NCBI GenBank assembly: GCA_021414065.1
Contig: JAIOPE010000037.1
Span: forward strand, 25,960-89,959
Reading direction: 5' to 3'
Length of the DNA: 64,000 nucleotides
From: Planctomycetota bacterium
GTDB lineage: Bacteria > Planctomycetota > JAJSAM01 > JAJVHW01
The translations under genes and the position numbers were made by a program. Shown here in pieces: positions 22,176 through 33,221 of the stretch. Below the pieces are notes generated by a model. It ran no database searches. It saw only the letters and a program-made list of their open reading frames with translations, and was not told where the DNA came from. The stretch's first letter is position 1. Each line of letters starts with the position of its first letter.

Positions 22176-22964
22176 TCAGTTCGCGGAGAGATGGAGGAAC
22201 ACCAGGTTCAGCGCGTTGAAGGCCACGTGCACGCGGATCGCAGCGCTCAACGACGCCGTGCGGGCGTACGTCCAGCCGCAGATCGCGCCGACGAGACCGA
22301 GCGGGATCGCGAGCGGCCACCACGCGGGAGGCGACGCCGCAACGTGGATGGCCCCGAACGCGGCCCCCGAGAGGAGCACCGCCCGCGGCATCCCTGTCCG
22401 CCGCGCGATCGCGGGCATCACGGCCCCGCGCCAGAAGATCTCCTCTCCGACGGGCGCGAGCACCAGCGTAGCGAGCATCGTCCCCGCCTGCTCGACCCCC
22501 GACACCGACCGCGCGAGCGCCACGACGTCCTGCTCGGGCGGCTTCGCGCCGAACGCCGCGTACCCGAGCGTGAGCAGCTCGCCCGTGAGCCCCACGACGC
22601 CGAACGTCGCGAGCCCCGCGAGCCAGCCCGCCGCGCGGAGCGCCCGCGGCGTGAGCGTCGGCGCCGGCACGCCCCGTCGCACGAACGGCAGGATCACGAG
22701 CGCGATCGCGAGGTGGACCGCCGACCCGAGGATCGTGAACCCGCCGGCCGAGAGCCCGGCCCCCGTCCCGATCGCGGGGACGATCCACATCGCGGCGATC
22801 CACGCGGGGATCGCAATGAGGAGCGCGTCTCCGGTGTCGGGGAACGCGCCCTGCGGCTGCGCGCCGAGCGGATCGCGCCCGCCGCGCACACGCCACGCCC
22901 ACCAGACGACGACGGCGAGTCCGAGCGCGGCCGTCGCGTACGACGCCGCGACGGCGAAGTTCAC
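22176..22964 (-). CDS. CPBP (CAAX/Abi) family intramembrane metalloprotease
   Basis: A 262-residue protein with about eight membrane segments. The three family motifs are present: EEIFWRG (EExxxR), FGAIH (FxxxH) and HVAFN (HxxxN), which build the intramembrane metal site. GTG at 22964 overlaps the thiG stop (GTGA), so it is coupled to the thiamine genes, though a functional link is not clear. Bacterial CPBP proteins take part in peptide maturation, bacteriocin immunity or membrane anchoring; the substrate here is unknown. Confidence 0.88.
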   Translation of the reverse strand: MNFAVAASYATAALGLAVVVWWAWRVRGGRDPLGAQPQGAFPDTGDALLIAIPAWIAAMWIVPAIGTGAGLSAGGFTILGSAVHLAIALVILPFVRRGVPAPTLTPRALRAAGWLAGLATFGVVGLTGELLTLGYAAFGAKPPEQDVVALARSVSGVEQAGTMLATLVLAPVGEEIFWRGAVMPAIARRTGMPRAVLLSGAAFGAIHVAASPPAWWPLAIPLGLVGAICGWTYARTASLSAAIRVHVAFNALNLVFLHLSAN

Positions 22965-23761
22965 GTCTTCGACCCGACGACACCCTCGACCGGCGACGAC
23001 GGCGCGCCCTCGGGCCGCACGGCCATGCGGCCCGCGAGCCAGCCGAGCCGCCCCGCCTCGCACGCGAGCCTCATCCCCCGCGCCATCGCGACGGGATCCT
23101 GCGCCAGAGCGACGGCGGTGTTGACGATCACGCCGTCCGCACCGAGTTCCATCGCCTGCGCCACGTGCGACGGCGCGCCGAGTCCGGCATCCACCAGCAC
23201 CGGCACGCCCGCGTGCTCCTTGATGAACCCGATGTTCCGCGGGTTGAGGATGCCGAGCCCCGTGCCGATCGCCGCGCCGAGCGGCATCACCGCCGCCGCG
23301 CCGCGCTCCTCGTACCGCTTCGCGAGAACCGGGTCGTCGCCGCAGTAGACCATCACAGTGAAGCCCTCCTTCACGAGCACGTCGAGCGCCTTGAGCGTCT
23401 CGAGCGGCTCCGGCAGGAGCGACTTCTGGTCGTAGAGGACCTCGAGCTTCAGCAGCTCGTGACCGAGCAGTTCCCGCGCGAGCCGCGCCACCCGCACGGC
23501 GTCTTCGGCGTTGAAGCAGCCCGCCGTGTTCGGCAGCACCGTCATCCGCGCGCGGTCGATGTGGTCGAGGATCGTCGGCCCCGCCTGGCCGAGCGGGATG
23601 CGCCGGATCGCGACCGTGACGCACTCCGTGCCCGAGACGTCGAGCGCGCGCTCCATCGTCTCGAAGTCCTTGTACTTGCCCGTGCCGAGCACGATGCGCG
23701 ACCGGAATGCGAACCGGCCGACTTGCAGCACGTCCGACAGAGCCTTCGAATCCGACGTCAT
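22961..23761 (-). CDS. thiG: Thiazole synthase
   Basis: A 266-residue TIM barrel that builds the thiazole phosphate of thiamine from 1-deoxyxylulose 5-phosphate, dehydroglycine and ThiS thiocarboxylate. Motifs: VLGTGKYKDF at the start of the barrel, LPNTAGCF, the Schiff-base Lys in KLEVL, and PVLVDAGLG-x-PSHVAQAMELGADGVIVNTA. Two adjacent ATGs exist (23764 and 23761); the second is better spaced from GGAGG. The source of dehydroglycine (ThiH or ThiO) is not in the window. It lies 14 bases after thiS. Confidence 0.95.
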   Translation of the reverse strand: MTSDSKALSDVLQVGRFAFRSRIVLGTGKYKDFETMERALDVSGTECVTVAIRRIPLGQAGPTILDHIDRARMTVLPNTAGCFNAEDAVRVARLARELLGHELLKLEVLYDQKSLLPEPLETLKALDVLVKEGFTVMVYCGDDPVLAKRYEERGAAAVMPLGAAIGTGLGILNPRNIGFIKEHAGVPVLVDAGLGAPSHVAQAMELGADGVIVNTAVALAQDPVAMARGMRLACEAGRLGWLAGRMAVRPEGAPSSPVEGVVGSKT

Positions 23762-23775
23762 CATCCGCCTCCGAA

Positions 23776-23976
23776 TCACCCGCCGCCGACCATCGTGACG
23801 ATCTCGATCCGATCGCCTTCCGCCAGCACCGTCGCGCCGTGCGCCGAGCGCGGCACGATCTCGAGATTCCGCTCGACGGCCACCGGCCGCCCCGCGAGCC
23901 CGAGTTCACGCAGCAGGTCCGCCAGCGTCGAGCCCGCCGGCACCTCGCGCGCGTCACCGTTCACAGAGATGGTCAC
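23776..23976 (-). CDS. thiS: Sulfur carrier protein ThiS
   Basis: A 66-residue beta-grasp protein starting at GTG (VTISVNGDAREV) and ending in the required Gly-Gly tail (TMVGGG). The C-terminal glycine is adenylated and converted to a thiocarboxylate that donates sulfur to ThiG. First gene of thiS-thiG-CPBP. The roughly 120-base leader on its 5' side lacks the conserved TPP-riboswitch segments, so no riboswitch is called. Confidence 0.93.
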   Translation of the reverse strand: MTISVNGDAREVPAGSTLADLLRELGLAGRPVAVERNLEIVPRSAHGATVLAEGDRIEIVTMVGGG

Positions 23977-24559: not shown

Positions 24560-26353
24560 CTAGCGGGCGCCGGCCCGCATCTTCAAGATCGCGAACCGCG
24601 CGGCGAGCTCCGTGCGGTCCGCGTCGCGATACGCCTCGGGCAGGAACCGGCGGTCGGAGCAGGCGAGCACGGCGGCCAGTTCCTGCAGCAGGAGCAGGTC
24701 GCCGTCGAGCGGGTCGATGAACGACGCGACGGCGTCGCGGAGATCCTCCACGCGCACGTCGTCGTCACGCAGTGCGAGGACGGCCCGCTCCTTCGCGCGC
24801 GTGAGGATGGCGTCCACGTCGCTGCCGGTCAGCGGGCGGGTCCCCATCTCGTCGCGCGCCCACGCGAGTTCGGTTTCGTCGAGTGCGAGCGACTTCGTCT
24901 TCGCGATGACGCGCACTAGGTCGAGGACGTCGTCCGGCCCCTGCGCCGGGAACAGCGGCACGCAGAGCCCGAACCGGCCCTGTCGCTTCATGTCGATCGA
25001 GAGGAGGTCGGGGCGCGACGTCATCGCGATCCACAACTCGCGGCCGCGAAGCGTGGAGTCGCCGATGTGGGCCGCGAACGCTGCGAACACGCGGGATGAC
25101 ACGCCGCTGTCGCCGTCCGCCTGGCGCGTCCCGAGCACCGCGTCGGCCTCGTCCACGACGACGACCACGGGCCCCAGCGCGCGGATCGTCATGAGGATGC
25201 GCATCTGCTGCCGCTCGGTGTCGCCCACCCACTTCGATCGAAACTCACCCATCTCGAGAACCGGCAGCCCGCACTCGCTGGCGAAGCAGTCGACGAGAAA
25301 CGACTTGCCGACGCCCACGCGGCCGGGGAGGAGAACGCCCCGCTCGACGACATCGGTCTTGCCGTTGCGAAGGAGCCATGCGAGCTCCCGCATCCGCGCC
25401 TTGGCCGCCGTGTGCGTCGCCACGCGGTCGAGCGTCAACCCGGGTTTCGGGTCCTTGAACCGGACCATCCCCTGGCAGTAGTCCTCGATCAGCCGACGCT
25501 TCGCCTGGCTGACATAGTCGCCGGTCACGCGACCGCCGTTGCGCACGGCCTCCGCGATCAGGTTCTGCACGCGGACGAGTGCGAGGCCCGCCGTGCGCCG
25601 TGCGAGGTCCTCCGCCGAGAGGTCGCACCACTCGGCGAGCGGGCGCCCGCCGGCAACGTCTGCGACGAACTTCGACTCGATGAATCGGCGGCGGTCTTCT
25701 TCATCGGGAAGATCGATGGCGACCTGCGCGACATGCGGGTTCTGGAGCAGGTCCGCGTGGAGCTCGGCGGCGCTCTCCGTCACGAGGATCACCGCGACGT
25801 CGAGCGCTCGCACGTCGTACGACGTCGCCCACTTGAGGATCGTCACGAGTGAGATGCGTTCGTCGGCCGACGCCCCCGACTCCTCCGTGGCGGGAACGAT
25901 CTTCTCGGGGAAGTCGATGATCAGAGTGACGCCGCGCCTCTCCCCTTTCTCTTCGGACGCGCGGAGGAAGAACCGGCGCAGCAGCGGGGCGAGCTTCGTG
26001 AACTCGCGCGGCGGTCCCGACCGGTGGAAGTCGGTGTTCTCGACGGTGTCGTAGACGGCGAGCCACTCGAAGAACCGCGTCTGCATGTCGCGGCTTCCGA
26101 ACGTGAGGCCGTCGCTGATGTCGTAGAAGAGGAGCGTTCCCCGATCGGGGAAGAGTCGGCGCGAGAGGAACGCCTTGAGCGGTGCCCACCCGATCCCCTT
26201 CTCGTCGGGGACCGGGAACAAGTCGAACACGTCGCCGTGCAGCACGAACACGGCCTGCGAGCCGGCGTTCCACCTGCGCGCGAGGTCGGCCGCCCACCGG
26301 CGGAGCGGCAGGCCGCGGCTGACCGCGAGTTGTTCCGGGGTGGCGGCGCTCAT
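24560..26353 (-). CDS. Ycf46-like AAA+ ATPase of the PspA/VWA operon
   Basis: A 597-residue protein with two AAA-like halves. The first (about 15-235) has the fold's outline (VFVLHGDVFDLF, GVTLIIDFPEKI) but no Walker A. The second (about 300-540) is complete: Walker A GRVGVGKS (344-351), Walker B VVVVVDEAD (396-404), a sensor in AMTSRPD, then KRQGRFG with a probable arginine finger. An inactive N-terminal AAA half followed by an active one is the Ycf46 layout. Last gene of a five-gene operon, overlapping the membrane coiled-coil gene (ATGA). AAA+ partners such as PspF regulate PspA, so it may remodel or control the PspA-like protein. Confidence 0.85.
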   Translation of the reverse strand: MSAATPEQLAVSRGLPLRRWAADLARRWNAGSQAVFVLHGDVFDLFPVPDEKGIGWAPLKAFLSRRLFPDRGTLLFYDISDGLTFGSRDMQTRFFEWLAVYDTVENTDFHRSGPPREFTKLAPLLRRFFLRASEEKGERRGVTLIIDFPEKIVPATEESGASADERISLVTILKWATSYDVRALDVAVILVTESAAELHADLLQNPHVAQVAIDLPDEEDRRRFIESKFVADVAGGRPLAEWCDLSAEDLARRTAGLALVRVQNLIAEAVRNGGRVTGDYVSQAKRRLIEDYCQGMVRFKDPKPGLTLDRVATHTAAKARMRELAWLLRNGKTDVVERGVLLPGRVGVGKSFLVDCFASECGLPVLEMGEFRSKWVGDTERQQMRILMTIRALGPVVVVVDEADAVLGTRQADGDSGVSSRVFAAFAAHIGDSTLRGRELWIAMTSRPDLLSIDMKRQGRFGLCVPLFPAQGPDDVLDLVRVIAKTKSLALDETELAWARDEMGTRPLTGSDVDAILTRAKERAVLALRDDDVRVEDLRDAVASFIDPLDGDLLLLQELAAVLACSDRRFLPEAYRDADRTELAARFAILKMRAGAR

Positions 26354-27309
26354 CGTTCCTCCTCACGCGCGCGTTCGATGCGCGGTTCGACGCGCTGCGC
26401 GGCTGGAACCGGACTCGGCGGCGCCGGCGCGATCCCAGCGGCGACCCGCACGCCCGGCGGCGGGCCGTCGCCCACGACATCGCGGAAGTCCTCGATCTGC
26501 GTCAGCCAGCGGGTGGTTTCCCCGAGTTGCTCCACGGTGGAGTCGATGCGCATCGAAAGCCCGTCGGCATTCCGCGTGGCCACTGCGTCGGCGCGGATCA
26601 GCTTCACCTGCTGGACCAGGCGCAAGAGCTCAGCGGACGCGACGGCGAGGTTCTCTTTGGCCTGCTCGATCCGCCGCTGGCGCTTCTCCAGCACTTCCAC
26701 GCGTTCCCGGCACGACGCGGCCAGCCGTTGCCGCGCCTCGAGCATCGGGCCGCCCCCCTTGGCGACGACATCCGCCGCCGACCGCTCCGCGTCGATCGCT
26801 TCCTGCCCGGCCTCTCGCAGCAGTTTCGGGACCTCCTCCTTGCGCTCCACTTCGAGGAACGTCTCCAACGACTGCTCGAAGGCGAGAAGGCGGAGGTATG
26901 TCCAGACGAGCTCGTCGAGTTTCCGGATGCGCGGGTCGTCCGGTGCGTCCGTCGGTGCCAGCCCTGCGGCAGTGTGCGACTGCTCCACGTCGCGGCACAC
27001 GGCGACCAACTCGCCGAGCCGCGTGCGCCGCGGCGCGGAGAGCGACGCGACCATCGCGTCCCGGCGCTTTCGGAACTCCTCGCCGTCGGCCATCGTGACG
27101 GCGGCCCGGGCCGACTGCGTGCGTCGGTCGGCCCACGCGCGGAACAGCGGAGTGTCCGGCAGGTAGATCCAGCCCAGGGCGTACGCGGCGCCGCCGACGA
27201 GCAGGCCGAGCACGTTGCCCGCGGCGAATCCGAGTCCGAGCGTCAGCACGGCGAGCCACACATGGTGCGGGCTCTTCGGGAAGAGGCGTCGGTAGGAGGG
27301 GACGTCCAT
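26350..27309 (-). CDS. Membrane-anchored coiled-coil protein of the PspA/AAA operon
   Basis: A 319-residue protein starting at ATG 27309. Two N-terminal membrane helices (about 17-34 and 36-50) are followed by a long helical, charged region (about 60-290) with heptad-like patterning suited to coiled coils, then a Pro/Ala tail (about 290-319). No catalytic motif. The topology suggests a membrane platform with a cytoplasmic coiled coil that could dock PspA or the AAA+ ATPase. The family is not recognised; role inferred from the operon. Confidence 0.7.
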   Translation of the reverse strand: MDVPSYRRLFPKSPHHVWLAVLTLGLGFAAGNVLGLLVGGAAYALGWIYLPDTPLFRAWADRRTQSARAAVTMADGEEFRKRRDAMVASLSAPRRTRLGELVAVCRDVEQSHTAAGLAPTDAPDDPRIRKLDELVWTYLRLLAFEQSLETFLEVERKEEVPKLLREAGQEAIDAERSAADVVAKGGGPMLEARQRLAASCRERVEVLEKRQRRIEQAKENLAVASAELLRLVQQVKLIRADAVATRNADGLSMRIDSTVEQLGETTRWLTQIEDFRDVVGDGPPPGVRVAAGIAPAPPSPVPAAQRVEPRIERAREEER

Positions 27310-27331
27310 CAATGCGTGCGCCGGCGGTCGC

Positions 27332-29050
27332 TCACTCGAGTGTGAACCACTGCACCTCGACGCGACGGTTCTGGTCGGAGTCCGAACCGACGGGCTCCTC
27401 CCACCCGCGCCCGACGACCTCGAGTCGCGTGGCTTCCGCCGCGTACTTGTCCACGAGGACGCGCTTGATCTCCGCGGCCCTTCGCTTCGAGAGTTCCACG
27501 GCCTGCAGGGCGGCCTTGCGCACGAGCGGTTCGCCGCCCTGGCGACGGATCTCCTCGAGGTTGGCGTTGTCCACGTGGCCGCGGAGCGTGAGGGTCGAGC
27601 CGGGGCTCACCTGGAGCAGTCGTTTCACGTCGTCGAGGTTCTTCAGGTTGTCGGCGTTCTTCATGTCCAGGTCCGCCGACATCGGCGCGAAGAGGAACCG
27701 GATGTTCTTGCTGAGGAGCGGGTCCCGCTCGACGGTCATCTCGCCCTTCGCGCGGATCGGCGCAATCGCGACCGCCTGGTCCTTGTACGTGCCGGCATTC
27801 TCGATGACGTCGAGCGCCGTGCTGTCGAGGAAACGGTCGGCGTCCACCGGGTTGCGGACGAGCGCCGCGCCGTAGGCCCACACCGCGGACTGGTAGATCC
27901 CGCCGAAGCTGCCGGCCGACGTGATCGCGCCGGAGAAGAACGCCCGCGACTCCGGCAGGTTCGCCAGGTGCACCTGGCGGAGCTGGTTCCGCACCTTCTC
28001 GCGATCCCACTTGAACGCCTTCGCGAGCACGTCGAGCTGGGCCTCGGGATTCTCGCGAACGAGCCGGTTGCCCTCAAGGAGACCGTCCACGAGCCCGCGC
28101 ACCATGTCCGGCTTCTGCTGCGCGAAGCCCTTGTTGACGACCAGGATGTCGGCCACGATCAGCAGGTTCGTGTTCGACGTGAGAGCATGCGCCCGGCCGC
28201 CAGAGCGTTCGATCGCGTCGTTCGTGCTGGGCGCCCAGCCGACGAACCCGGCGAGCGCAGGGTGATCCGCCTTCGCGTGGCGGACGAACAGTTCCGCGGC
28301 CGCGGGCGAGTCGGAGCAGAAGACCAGGTTCAGCGAACCCGGATCGGGCTTCGCCGCCAGGTCGTGCAGCACATGGACCGGGAGCCCCGCTTCGCCCGCG
28401 AGGTAGCGGACGAAGAACTCGGCCTCCGTGAACTGAACCGTCGCCAACGTGCGTCCGCGGAGAGCGTTGACCGACTTGATGTCGCTCCGCACGACGACCG
28501 CGTCGGCGCCGCGCGAGTAACCGATCTGCGCCGGGACGACGACCTCGAACTGCTTCCCGTAGACCGCGAGCACGTCCACCGTGGTCGCCGACGCGGCCAT
28601 CTTGCCCGTGTTGAGGGCCGGCCAGCTCTCCTCCTCGCTCAGCGTCAGCTTCACCTGGAAGCCGTGCTTCCGCGCGAACACCGAGTTCGGGTTCGCGTCG
28701 AGGCCACCGTTCGCGGCGATCAGCCCCGCGTAGCCCGCGTACTCAGAGAGCTCGATCTCGACGACGTTGCCCATCGGCACGTACGCCGCGGGCGGCGGGA
28801 GTTGCGAGACTTCGGCGTCCGGCTCGGTGACTTCGGGGGACTCCATCGGCGCACGGGCGGTCGCCGGGGCCGATGCGCCGGGCGCGACGCCGTTCCCGGG
28901 TGGCGTGCCGTTTGCCGACGCGGCGCCGTTCTGCGGCGTCGCGCCGGGCGCACCCGGCTGCCAGATGAGTTGCGGGTACCAGCGCCACACGCCGAACGCC
29001 AAGAGGCCCAGCACGAGCAGCGTGAGCAGGAACTTCCCTCGTCCGGTCAT
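27332..29050 (-). CDS. Membrane-anchored solute-binding (NMT1/SsuA-like) protein with C-terminal OmpA-like domain
   Basis: A 572-residue protein with GGAGG before the ATG. One N-terminal helix (about 6-23) anchors it; a Pro/Ala/Gly linker (about 30-90) leads to a type-2 periplasmic-binding fold like NMT1/SsuA (about 95-430; GYAGLIAANGGLD, VDVLAVYGKQF, ALRGRTLATVQF, ALAGFVGW). Residues about 445-572 form an OmpA/MotB-type domain (LTLRGHVDN, LSKRRAAEIKRVLV, RLEVVGRGWEEPV, NRRVEV) that would grip peptidoglycan. No ABC permease is near, so ligand sensing across the envelope is more likely than import. Third gene of the PspA operon. Confidence 0.82.
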   Translation of the reverse strand: MTGRGKFLLTLLVLGLLAFGVWRWYPQLIWQPGAPGATPQNGAASANGTPPGNGVAPGASAPATARAPMESPEVTEPDAEVSQLPPPAAYVPMGNVVEIELSEYAGYAGLIAANGGLDANPNSVFARKHGFQVKLTLSEEESWPALNTGKMAASATTVDVLAVYGKQFEVVVPAQIGYSRGADAVVVRSDIKSVNALRGRTLATVQFTEAEFFVRYLAGEAGLPVHVLHDLAAKPDPGSLNLVFCSDSPAAAELFVRHAKADHPALAGFVGWAPSTNDAIERSGGRAHALTSNTNLLIVADILVVNKGFAQQKPDMVRGLVDGLLEGNRLVRENPEAQLDVLAKAFKWDREKVRNQLRQVHLANLPESRAFFSGAITSAGSFGGIYQSAVWAYGAALVRNPVDADRFLDSTALDVIENAGTYKDQAVAIAPIRAKGEMTVERDPLLSKNIRFLFAPMSADLDMKNADNLKNLDDVKRLLQVSPGSTLTLRGHVDNANLEEIRRQGGEPLVRKAALQAVELSKRRAAEIKRVLVDKYAAEATRLEVVGRGWEEPVGSDSDQNRRVEVQWFTLE

Positions 29051-29093
29051 CGTTCAACCTCCGCGCGCCGACGTCCGGGCGCACTCAACTGGA

Positions 29094-29855
29094 TCACTCG
29101 GAGATGCGCTGGCGGTCCTCGCGCTGCGGAGCCGGCTGCGCCGGCGCGGCCGCCTCGCCCTGGACCATGCCCATCTTCTTCTTGTACTCAGCGAAGAGCA
29201 TCTGGCCGCGCGCCTTGCGCATCTCCTGCTGCCGCTGGACCGACGACCCCATCTCCTTGGCGAGATCGAGTGTGGCGCGCATCTGGCCCTCGCCGCCGGC
29301 GGCCGCCTGCCGCAGTTGCTGCATCGACTGGCCGATCTCGCCGCCCATCATTCCCTGCAGTTCGGTGATGGAGCCCTTCATCAGCGTCGCGAGGTTCTCG
29401 AGCGAACGCCCGACGGCGACCTTGACCTTCACCTGCTCGAACTCACGCTGGAACTTCTGAATCTCGCGCAGGCTCTGGGCAATGATCTGCGTGTTCTGCT
29501 GGTAGAGCTCCTCGAGACCCTGGAGCTGCGACCGGTTGTCGGCAAGATCGGCTTCGAGCGACGCCAACTGCTCGGCGGTCGCCGCGCCGTTGGCCTCGTC
29601 GTTCGCGGCGGCGCAGGCCTGGAGCATCCCGGTGAGCTCCTCCTTCTGCCGCTCCTGGCGCTTGATCTGGTCCTTCAGGAGCGCGATCTGCCCCGCGAGC
29701 TGACCGTTCGCGTAGTGGGCCTTGTCCGCCTTCGCCTTCGCGTCGCGGATGCCCCGTTCCACCATCGCCTGATTGATGGCGTCGGTCTCCGTGACCTGCT
29801 CGGCCATGAGACCCATCCAGACGAACACCCGCTTGATCGCGCGAAAGAAGCCCAT
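29094..29855 (-). CDS. PspA/IM30 (Vipp1) family membrane-remodelling protein
   Basis: A 253-residue, almost wholly helical protein. It opens with an amphipathic helix (MGFFRAIKRVFVW) as used by PspA for membrane insertion, followed by long coiled-coil helices (about 25-215) and a low-complexity Ala/Pro/Gln tail. PspA proteins assemble into ESCRT-III-like rods and rings on damaged inner membranes. GGAGG lies four bases before the ATG. It sits between the VWA lipoprotein and the binding/OmpA protein, with 12 and 43 bases of spacing. Confidence 0.85.
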   Translation of the reverse strand: MGFFRAIKRVFVWMGLMAEQVTETDAINQAMVERGIRDAKAKADKAHYANGQLAGQIALLKDQIKRQERQKEELTGMLQACAAANDEANGAATAEQLASLEADLADNRSQLQGLEELYQQNTQIIAQSLREIQKFQREFEQVKVKVAVGRSLENLATLMKGSITELQGMMGGEIGQSMQQLRQAAAGGEGQMRATLDLAKEMGSSVQRQQEMRKARGQMLFAEYKKKMGMVQGEAAAPAQPAPQREDRQRISE

Positions 29856-29867
29856 CGTGTCCTCCGT

Positions 29868-30683
29868 CTACTTCCCAGCGCCCGAGGGCCGGGGGTGCTC
29901 CACCTCGAGGAGGATCTTCTCCTCGAGGATGTACTGCATCCGCTCGTTGAGCTGCGTCTCGTCCGAAGCCCCGAGCAGTGTCGCTCCTTCGGCCCGCACG
30001 GACTTGAACTCCTCGGCGTCCACGTCGAACGCGACGAAGTGCGCCGAGAACGCCACCTGCCTGCGATCGGCCTCGGCGCGCAGAGCACGCAGGGCCGTCG
30101 CGGGGTCCGGCGGGTGCGTGTTCTTCCCGTCCGTCAGCACGACGATGTGCTTCGTGACGAGCTTCGAGCCGATGACGGCCTCGCCCGCGAGCCGCACGGC
30201 ATCGCCGAGCGGCGTCGGCCCATCGGGCTGACTGAACCCGTCCACCCACGCTCGGAGCCCCGCCGCGTCGAACGGAGCCATCCGGATTGCGAACGCGGCC
30301 TTTCCTTCGTCGGACGTGCCCTTCCTGCCGAATCGGACGAGCGCCGTCTCGAGCCGCGTCGGTCCGTCGGCCGGAGGCGAAGCGACGAACTTCTTCAGAC
30401 GTTCCACGATCCCGACGAATGCGCGGTTCGCGACCTGCCACTTGGCGCTCTGCCCGCCCTTGCCGTCCGACACGCTCTCGGACATGCTGCCGGATGTGTC
30501 GTAGACGAAACCGAGCGCAATCCCGCTCTCCAGGACCGGCGGCGGATTCGGCGTTGCGGAGTTCCCGCCGCCTGCCGTGACGGAGCCGGGCTCGTCGGAG
30601 CAGGACGCGACAGCCATGAGCGCCGCGATCGCCAACGAGGCGACGCGCAAGCTTCTACGGCGACGACCGACGTGATTGCCCAT
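29868..30683 (-). CDS. VWA-domain lipoprotein, first gene of the PspA operon
   Basis: A 271-residue lipoprotein: Arg-rich start, hydrophobic core and lipobox VAS-C (C28). After a Gly/Asn/Pro linker comes a VWA domain (about 55-260) with MIDAS DTSGS (62-66), a later Thr and VVLTDGKNTH. The ATG at 30683 follows GGGAGGG at good distance. It heads the five-gene operon VWA-PspA-SBP/OmpA-coiled coil-AAA+. VWA proteins and AAA+ ATPases often act as pairs (MoxR/VWA, RavA/ViaA); here the VWA protein is outside the inner membrane, so it may sense or gate the envelope side. Confidence 0.85.
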   Translation of the reverse strand: MGNHVGRRRRSLRVASLAIAALMAVASCSDEPGSVTAGGGNSATPNPPPVLESGIALGFVYDTSGSMSESVSDGKGGQSAKWQVANRAFVGIVERLKKFVASPPADGPTRLETALVRFGRKGTSDEGKAAFAIRMAPFDAAGLRAWVDGFSQPDGPTPLGDAVRLAGEAVIGSKLVTKHIVVLTDGKNTHPPDPATALRALRAEADRRQVAFSAHFVAFDVDAEEFKSVRAEGATLLGASDETQLNERMQYILEEKILLEVEHPRPSGAGK

Positions 30684-31065
30684 GATCGCCCTCCCGCGGC
30701 GGTACTGCACGCTAGCAGCGCCGCCGCCGCCGCGTCAACGCTGGTGTCCATTGCAGGCTCCGCCGTTGCCTGTCATCGTCGCCCGTCATCGTCAGCAGCG
30801 GCGCGCGCGACGCCGAGCCGACGAGCGTACTACGCCCGCATGGTGAACCGCGCCCGGTCGCGCGGGTTCAGCGATTGAGGCCCCGGGGGGAGGATTGACG
30901 CACGCGATTCTACGCGACGCGCGTTCGCGGAGCAGTGCAGCCGGGCCGGACCGAAGAGGACGCGACCCGGCGCTCGTGGCGACGTTCCCGACGAGGTAGG
31001 CACGAGTCGCGAACGGCACCGCGAGAGTCCCCACGAACTCACGTCCGCACCGGTACGCTCTGCGG
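30684..31065. other. Intergenic region between divergent operons
   Basis: 382 bases without a convincing gene. It must hold the promoters of the PspA operon (minus) and of the small membrane protein (plus). It contains a GAACCGCGC/GCGCGGGTTC hairpin near 30843-30868 and one copy of a dispersed 83-bp repeat (30919-31001). Frames through it have no good start context. Confidence 0.6.
30919..31001 (-). repeat. Dispersed intergenic repeat, copy 1 (83 bp)
   Basis: Read on the minus strand this block matches 52523-52605 at about 72 of 83 positions by eye, beginning GCCTACCTCGTCGGGAA and ending CTGCTCCGCGAA. Both copies are intergenic and in opposite orientation. Weaker similarity continues a further 20-30 bases. 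No coding role is apparent, although the frame translating as AYLVG(N/K)V is conserved in both. Confidence 0.7.
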
Positions 31066-32037: not shown

Positions 32038-32553
32038 TCACTCGCCCGACGTCGGGGCGCGGCGCTCGGCCTCGCCCAGGCTTCCGCGAAGCCGCTGGGC
32101 TTCGCCGCGCAACGAGTGCGCGAGGCGGGTGTCGGCCCGACCGTCCGCTTCGGCCGCGAGGCGGTCGAGGAGATCCGCAGCTCGTCCGGGATCGTTTGCA
32201 CGGCTGCAGAATCCGTCACCGAAGTACACGGCGACGACATCGATGCGCCCGACGATGTGCCGGTTGAACTCGTGCAGGTCCTCCGCCGGGACCCACAGCT
32301 CCTCGTGCGCGCGGCCGCCGACGATGTGCCGCTCGAACTTCGCGACGTACGCGTCGTCCACCGCGAACCGCGTCACGAACCCGATGAGCGAGTGGCTCTT
32401 CGTGTTCCAGTCTCGTGCGATCTGACGCGCGTACGCCTCGATCAGCACGGGGTAGAAGATCGGCTGCTCAGGCAGGCGCGGCGGGAACGCGCGCATGTCG
32501 GCCGCGTCGATGAGACGCAGCTCCTCGAGACCGACGGGGCGGAAGAGGATCAC
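32038..32553 (-). CDS. ADP-ribosylation/crystallin J1-type protein, last gene of the NAD operon
   Basis: A 171-residue protein starting at GTG 32553 (VILFRPVGLEEL), which overlaps the pnuC stop (GTGA). The core AFPPRLPEQPIFYPVL, ARDWNTKS, GFVTRFAVDD, ELWVPAEDLHEFNRHIVGRI matches a small conserved family usually annotated ADP-ribosylation/crystallin J1 or DUF; its activity is not established. The C-terminal 40 residues are helical and variable. Placement at the end of an NAD/ADP-ribose operon is consistent with that label, but the name itself is weakly founded. Confidence 0.8.
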   Translation of the reverse strand: MILFRPVGLEELRLIDAADMRAFPPRLPEQPIFYPVLIEAYARQIARDWNTKSHSLIGFVTRFAVDDAYVAKFERHIVGGRAHEELWVPAEDLHEFNRHIVGRIDVVAVYFGDGFCSRANDPGRAADLLDRLAAEADGRADTRLAHSLRGEAQRLRGSLGEAERRAPTSGE

Positions 32554-33221
32554 GCGGCCCGCCCGGCGGTCCGCACGGCCGCGGCGCCGCGCCGCTCCCG
32601 GTGCCATCCGACGTATCCCCACACGGCGAGCGCGAGCAGCACGACATACAGCAGCGCGACGAACTTCACGTCTTTCACGTAGTAGAGCCACACGCCGGCG
32701 ACATCGATGAGTATCCAGTAGATCCAGCTCTCGACCTGGCGTCGCGCCATCAGCCACATCGCGACCAAGCTCATCACGGTCGTGGCCGCGTCGATCCACG
32801 GGTAGTCGGCCGGGGCAGGGAATGCCGACGGAAGCCAAATGTGCACGCGTGTCATCGCGGCCCCGACTGCGACGGAGAGGACTGCTGTCGCCGCCGCCGT
32901 GACCGCGATGCTCTTCAGACTTGAGTACGCCACCGGCACCGGCTGCGAGCGGTCGGCGCGCGCCCGACTCCAGTTCCACCAGCCGTACACGCTCGCGACG
33001 AGGTAGTAGCCCTGCTCGATCGCGTCGGAGTAGAGGTGGATCTGCCAGAAGAGCGCTGCGAAGAGAACGACCGCCACGATGCCGACAGGCCACGTCAGCA
33101 TCTTGCGCCGCGCGATGAGCACGACGGACCACAGGTAGAAGACCGTCCCGACGAGTTCGATCCAGCTCATCGGGTAGCCGATCCCCGTGAACGCGATCGT
33201 GTTGACGTCGAGGTACTGCAT
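32550..33221 (-). CDS. pnuC: Nicotinamide riboside/NMN transporter PnuC
   Basis: A 223-residue membrane protein with about seven helices. PnuC landmarks are seen: WIELVGTVFYLWSV, TWPVGIV, GYYLVASVYGWWNW, and W-I-Y-W-I-L-I-D-V in the later half. The ATG at 33221 overlaps the nadR stop as TGATG and has GAGGAGG at seven bases. It imports nicotinamide riboside, which the NadR kinase traps by phosphorylation; the pair next to each other is the usual arrangement. Confidence 0.93.
   Translation of the reverse strand: MQYLDVNTIAFTGIGYPMSWIELVGTVFYLWSVVLIARRKMLTWPVGIVAVVLFAALFWQIHLYSDAIEQGYYLVASVYGWWNWSRARADRSQPVPVAYSSLKSIAVTAAATAVLSVAVGAAMTRVHIWLPSAFPAPADYPWIDAATTVMSLVAMWLMARRQVESWIYWILIDVAGVWLYYVKDVKFVALLYVVLLALAVWGYVGWHRERRGAAAVRTAGRAA

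Follow-up and report, generated by a model that had tools for sequence, protein, structure and literature searches.

We identified a five-gene operon on the minus strand (30683-24560) of a 64,000 nucleotide stretch of DNA from a Planctomycetota bacterium, hereafter the window, taken from a metagenome assembly (G000) that is 88 % complete and comprises 184 contigs. The operon encodes, in order, a VWA-domain lipoprotein, a PspA/IM30 protein, a solute-binding protein joined to an OmpA domain (SBP-OmpA), a membrane-anchored coiled-coil (CC) protein and a double AAA+ protein. It is a transporter-free variant, with an added VWA gene, of a system described by Ravi et al. 2024 (PMC11237479). What is new is that SBP-OmpA proteins divide into two clades and that the clade of the window is, as far as gene neighbourhoods indicate, free of transporters.

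Ravi et al. reported PspA together with a double AAA+ protein whose N-terminal copy is inactive, noted that longer operons may add a transmembrane (TM)-bearing Snf7 homologue, an ATP-binding cassette (ABC) ATPase and permease, and also a PBPB-OmpA protein (example OGG56892.1), and proposed that membrane remodelling is tied to solute transport (PMC11237479). The sequence-only reading of the window could not name the five-part set as a studied system, but the ABC-linked version had thus already been described. PspA, an AAA+ protein with an inactive N-terminal copy and the SBP-OmpA fusion are common to both, and the CC protein of the window is probably the TM-bearing Snf7 homologue, although its Snf7 identity was not reproduced here. 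The ABC ATPase and permease of the longer operons are absent from the window operon and from all 37 loci of its clade, which marks a variant and not an exclusion since such genes, according to PMC11237479, 'may' occur. The window also has a VWA partner, a domain with 0 occurrences in the main text of that paper, and its SBP-OmpA falls in a clade separate from the ABC-linked proteins that was never found with ABC genes.

Two clades of SBP-OmpA proteins and exchange between backbones

After removal of near-identical copies the SBP-OmpA set comprised 113 proteins, of which 76 (group A) share 24-30 % identity with the window protein and 37 (group B) share 47-63 %. Group B, which includes the window protein, forms a single clade with support of 100. 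The sequence-only reading named constant pairing of the OmpA/binding protein with a transporter as a finding that would refute it. Such pairing is usual in group A, where ABC permease or ATPase genes lie nearby at 66 of 76 loci, but is never seen in the clade of the window, where they do so at 0 of 37 (p = 6e-21; kinship ignored). Restricting the comparison to loci flanked by 3 kb or more in each direction gave counts of 42/46 and 0/24 respectively. Group B thereby differs from SsuA/TauA-type ABC binding proteins, which have a cognate permease and ATPase alongside. The missing transporter suggests that the binding protein may act as a sensor.

The remainder of the operon is shared across the two groups. 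An operon from genome G011 (L023) carries a group-A SBP-OmpA plus a permease and an ABC ATPase, and its seven-gene order is identical in a locus from Verrucomicrobiota (L145). Identity between this operon and that of the window is 75 % for the AAA+ protein, 81 % for PspA, 52 % for the CC protein and 49 % for the VWA protein, but only about 30 % for SBP-OmpA. The AAA+ neighbours of group B lie in three or more distinct AAA+ clades, each of them placed among group-A members. Within the backbone clade of the window, group-A and group-B operons were interleaved in a tree built from the joined sequences of PspA, CC and AAA+, and a single clade of group-B operons was rejected (approximately unbiased test, p-AU 0.007), which argues that modules have been exchanged. 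The trees indicate that SBP-OmpA modules were swapped, from A to B or from B to A, within an otherwise conserved backbone.

Proteins encoded by the operon

The sequence-only reading had described five minus-strand genes with short gaps or overlaps encoding a VWA lipoprotein with a metal ion-dependent adhesion site (MIDAS), a PspA/IM30 protein, an anchored NMT1-like binding domain joined to a peptidoglycan-binding OmpA domain, a two-helix membrane coiled-coil protein and an AAA+ ATPase with one dead and one live half. Open reading frames (ORFs), gaps and domains all agree with this description, the PspA assignment being the one that required evidence beyond the single sequence.

The VWA-domain lipoprotein (29868..30683, minus strand; 271 amino acids from an ATG at 30683) matches Pfam VWA (E = 7.3e-6) and has a hydrophobic N-terminus terminating in VASC, a lipobox. 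Its MIDAS is intact, with D62-S64-S66, T157 and D185 invariant among 17 relatives. MIDAS sites bind partners through metal. For the second protein (29094..29855, minus strand; 253 amino acids) the PspA_IM30 match of the window sequence alone is weak and below cut-off (E = 0.019). However, PF04012 is matched by 47 of 50 relatives, the family profile retrieves Vipp1/PspA among PDB chains at 2e-10, the helices of the AlphaFold model (3-20, 24-83, 87-160, 192-200 and 205-227) follow the PspA order and the top Foldseek matches of the model are Vipp1/PspA. Family profile and model together therefore make the assignment to PspA/IM30 solid. PspA is a member of the ESCRT-III superfamily whose polymers shape inner membranes.

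The SBP-OmpA protein (27332..29050, minus strand; 572 amino acids; group B) has an N-terminal anchor, a binding domain matching the SsuA family (1.4e-14) and NMT1 (4e-4), and an OmpA domain (3.3e-9). Its profile also matches MotB/PomB-type anchored OmpA proteins, which likewise combine an inner-membrane anchor with a periplasmic OmpA domain; in the window protein a solute-binding domain is inserted and the motor channel is absent. OmpA domains hold peptidoglycan, and the conserved D494 (0.99 in group A, 0.95 in group B) and R524 (1.0 and 0.97), judged by the family motif, presumably represent the known peptidoglycan site. Twelve positions discriminate between the groups, being at least 90 % conserved in each with differing residues; ten of them map to the binding domain and one to OmpA. 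In the binding domain of group B S102, Y104, Y107, R180, E209 and R215 are invariant (1.0), and such group-specific residues point to a ligand of its own. Ligand binding thus seems to have been retained in group B without transport.

A flavin amine oxidase gene adjoins 4 of 37 group-B genes but none of the 76 in group A (p = 0.01); closely related loci account for two of these four cases. These oxidases (L072:8054-9529, L068:7670-9142, L110:2033-3508 and L102:3471-5126), some with a twin-arginine-like start, make a polyamine or other amine only a lead for the ligand of group B.

The CC protein (26350..27309, minus strand; 319 amino acids) is modelled by AlphaFold as helical throughout (predicted local distance difference test score 91), with one strong hydrophobic stretch near the N-terminus, modelled as two helices (14-29 and 33-52), that forms an anchor ahead of a helical bundle. 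Pfam and PDB profile searches gave no match, and the best PDB fold match, to F-BAR (E 0.08, template modelling score 0.2), was taken as chance. These searches gave no support for the CC protein as a PspA/Snf7 relative, with an hhalign profile match of 0.8 %, no Pfam hit and any Snf7 similarity below detection, and no recognisable relatives were found outside these loci. In groups A and B alike the CC gene is conserved in the neighbourhood of SBP-OmpA; it is the commonest neighbour in group B, adjacent in 14 of 37, which fits a direct link between the two proteins.

The double AAA+ protein (24560..26353, minus strand; 597 amino acids) matches Pfam AAA in its C-half only (E = 2.8e-19). Across 54 members of the family Walker A is kept in every C-half and missing from every N-half, and Walker B is likewise confined to the C-half (54/54). 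A profile of the N-half retrieves AAA domains of CDC48/p97 (about 1e-6), and the nearest solved structures to the protein, labelled Ycf46-like in the sequence-only reading, are of CDC48/VAT type, so that an inactive N-half and an active, CDC48-like C-half are predicted.

Distribution and co-occurrence

Of 392 genomes in the phylum, 46 contain a strong full-length match to the SBP-OmpA profile (E < 1e-110), and the species-genome collection yielded at least 501 relatives. Neighbourhood profiles found PspA, SBP-OmpA, permease, ABC ATPase, CC and AAA+ genes, with or without VWA, across many phyla; the ABC-linked set occurs in Planctomycetota, Verrucomicrobiota, Acidobacteriota, Elusimicrobiota, Krumholzibacteriota, Myxococcota and others. 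The double AAA+ protein is encoded in 36 of 46 genomes with SBP-OmpA as against 15 of 346 without (kinship ignored). A second Planctomycetota genome, G005 (MAG.395; loci L078/L109), has the order VWA-PspA-SBP(B)-CC as in the window, with the AAA+ gene on another contig. Three Verrucomicrobia have VWA-PspA-SBP(B) at one locus and CC-AAA+ at another in the same genome, and this splitting of the set over two loci argues that its parts belong together.

Xanthomonas sp. AmX2, listed as a strain and not a metagenome-assembled genome, encodes PspA, the double AAA+ protein and CC together with an SBP-OmpA of group B (57 % identical) and no ABC genes (L121:6094-11512), a locus probably acquired by horizontal transfer. 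A genome of the same family as that of the window (G002) has a PspA-AAA+ pair only (L027:8161-10644), its AAA+ protein belonging to a different branch from that of the window.

A putative envelope system and its alternatives

With slightly less than even confidence we read the operon as a transporter-free PspA/double-AAA+/CC/SBP-OmpA envelope system in which a peptidoglycan-tethered ligand sensor is coupled to a remodelling core. PspA would polymerise on the cytoplasmic side of the inner membrane and the AAA+ protein, with a live C-ring and an N-half serving as scaffold, would remodel or disassemble the polymer as Vps4 does ESCRT-III. The CC protein, its helical bundle probably cytoplasmic, may link AAA+ and PspA both with the membrane and with SBP-OmpA. 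With its inner-membrane anchor and its hold on peptidoglycan in the periplasm, SBP-OmpA would use its binding domain to sense a small ligand or the state of the envelope and would no longer serve a permease, while the VWA lipoprotein could dock in the periplasm by metal-dependent binding. The predicted topology spans the envelope, in keeping with the trans-envelope arrangement that the sequence-only reading had proposed, in which the CC protein and AAA+ would drive PspA assembly. Sequence gives the domains, their order and co-occurrence, the lost ABC linkage and the module exchange; from it we infer a putative physical link between the parts, the direction in which a signal would pass, remodelling of the membrane and the presence of a ligand.

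ESCRT-III/Vps4 systems (archaeal Cdv and eukaryotic ESCRT) likewise pair an ESCRT-III superfamily member with an encoded AAA+ protein; unlike Vps4, the AAA+ protein of the window has two CDC48-like halves, no MIT domain by Pfam and partners that span the envelope. A wider formulation, a bacterial ESCRT-III/Vps4-like remodelling machine ruled from outside by a peptidoglycan-tethered receptor, with former transport binding proteins exchanged between backbones, we consider doubtful. Operons encoding vWA, FtsZl1 and OmpA (Makarova & Koonin 2010, PMC2875224) similarly combine a MIDAS VWA, an OmpA domain and a cytoplasmic polymer-forming protein, with an FtsZ-like GTPase where the window has PspA and AAA+.

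Several observations weigh against a coupled envelope system. The CC protein has no similarity to PspA or Snf7 detectable by profile, Pfam or fold searches. The conserved set anticipated by the sequence-only reading is genuine, as the VWA-PspA-SBP-CC order recurs in G005 and partners co-occur even when unlinked, but 15 of 37 group-B genes have zero partner genes nearby. The double AAA+ protein is missing from 8 of 28 group-B genomes; most genomes in the analysis are drafts, and some absences may be gaps. The association counts moreover take genomes as independent, ignoring kinship.

The partnerless loci favour an alternative that we judge fairly unlikely, namely that SBP-OmpA is an autonomous peptidoglycan-anchored protein for ligand binding or buffering that is only loosely associated with PspA/AAA+ operons and has no function in them. 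A group-B subgroup (L070, L075, L077, L105, L108 and L130) with a signal-peptide-like start points the same way, as five of its loci have other neighbours of ~250 amino acids and most of its genomes lack the double AAA+ protein; its members probably have a signal peptide and work without the AAA+ protein. Against such autonomy stand the adjacency of the CC gene at 14 of 37 loci, the recruitment of group-B proteins into several AAA+ backbones and the finding that genomes with unlinked group-B genes mostly hold CC-AAA+ or PspA-CC-AAA+ elsewhere. The neighbouring ~250 amino acid proteins, at L077:9598-11080 and also in L070, L075, L108 and L130, are related to one another and have no Pfam match.

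It is decidedly unlikely that SBP-OmpA still transports, feeding an ABC permease encoded elsewhere while PspA and AAA+ merely maintain the surrounding membrane. Group A is a transporter-linked homologue, a transport link was proposed by Ravi et al. (PMC11237479), and some group-B genomes, those of family f12, encode a permease of moderate similarity (E about 1e-50). However, at a threshold of 1e-20 a related permease is missing from 12 of 28 genomes that have group B only, whereas in genomes with group-A operons the related permease scores 1e-107 to 1e-112. No cognate permease for the window SBP-OmpA was found in G000; an orphan transporter elsewhere in this genome was ruled out, the sole related permease being part of a complete transporter that has an ATPase and a binding protein of its own. 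The same loss of the ABC link is seen in the window and G005.

A general scaffold for membrane and cell-wall maintenance, in which the binding domain has lost its ligand and become a structural adaptor, would accord with the OmpA residues common to groups A and B and with the parallels to the vWA/OmpA/FtsZl1 operons (PMC2875224). We regard it as improbable, the six invariant binding-domain residues of group B being unlike a decayed pocket. That the missing ABC genes are an assembly or binning artefact, as the metagenome assembly of the window might suggest, was rejected as highly improbable, since the independent assembly G005 has no ABC genes between its VWA, PspA, SBP(B) and CC genes and VWA-PspA-SBP(B) is repeated in Verrucomicrobia.

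A sensor-coupled remodelling system would bear on how PspA assembly is controlled in bacteria without PspF/PspBC. We found no test in the literature of a dedicated Vps4-like ATPase for any bacterial PspA. The operon brings together few genes and a defined input from the periplasm, and the split between groups A and B provides natural comparisons of like backbones that do or do not have a transporter, by which sensing can be told apart from transport.

Genomic context of the operon

The intergenic gaps within the operon are 12, 43, 22 and -4 bases, sequences resembling a ribosome-binding site precede most of the five starts, and the GC content at third codon positions of the five ORFs is 0.87-0.92. 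Alternative starts are a GTG at 30710 for the VWA gene and a TTG at 27312 for the CC gene. A defence system was ruled out, PADLOC matches being to generic AAA and coiled-coil proteins only, as was plasmid spread of the operon, plasmid records giving zero matches. Both flanks are predicted genes on the opposite strand. The wider surroundings are ordinary, with ThiS-ThiG thiazole genes downstream (22961-23964) and a PnuC-type nicotinamide mononucleotide transporter upstream (32550-33221).

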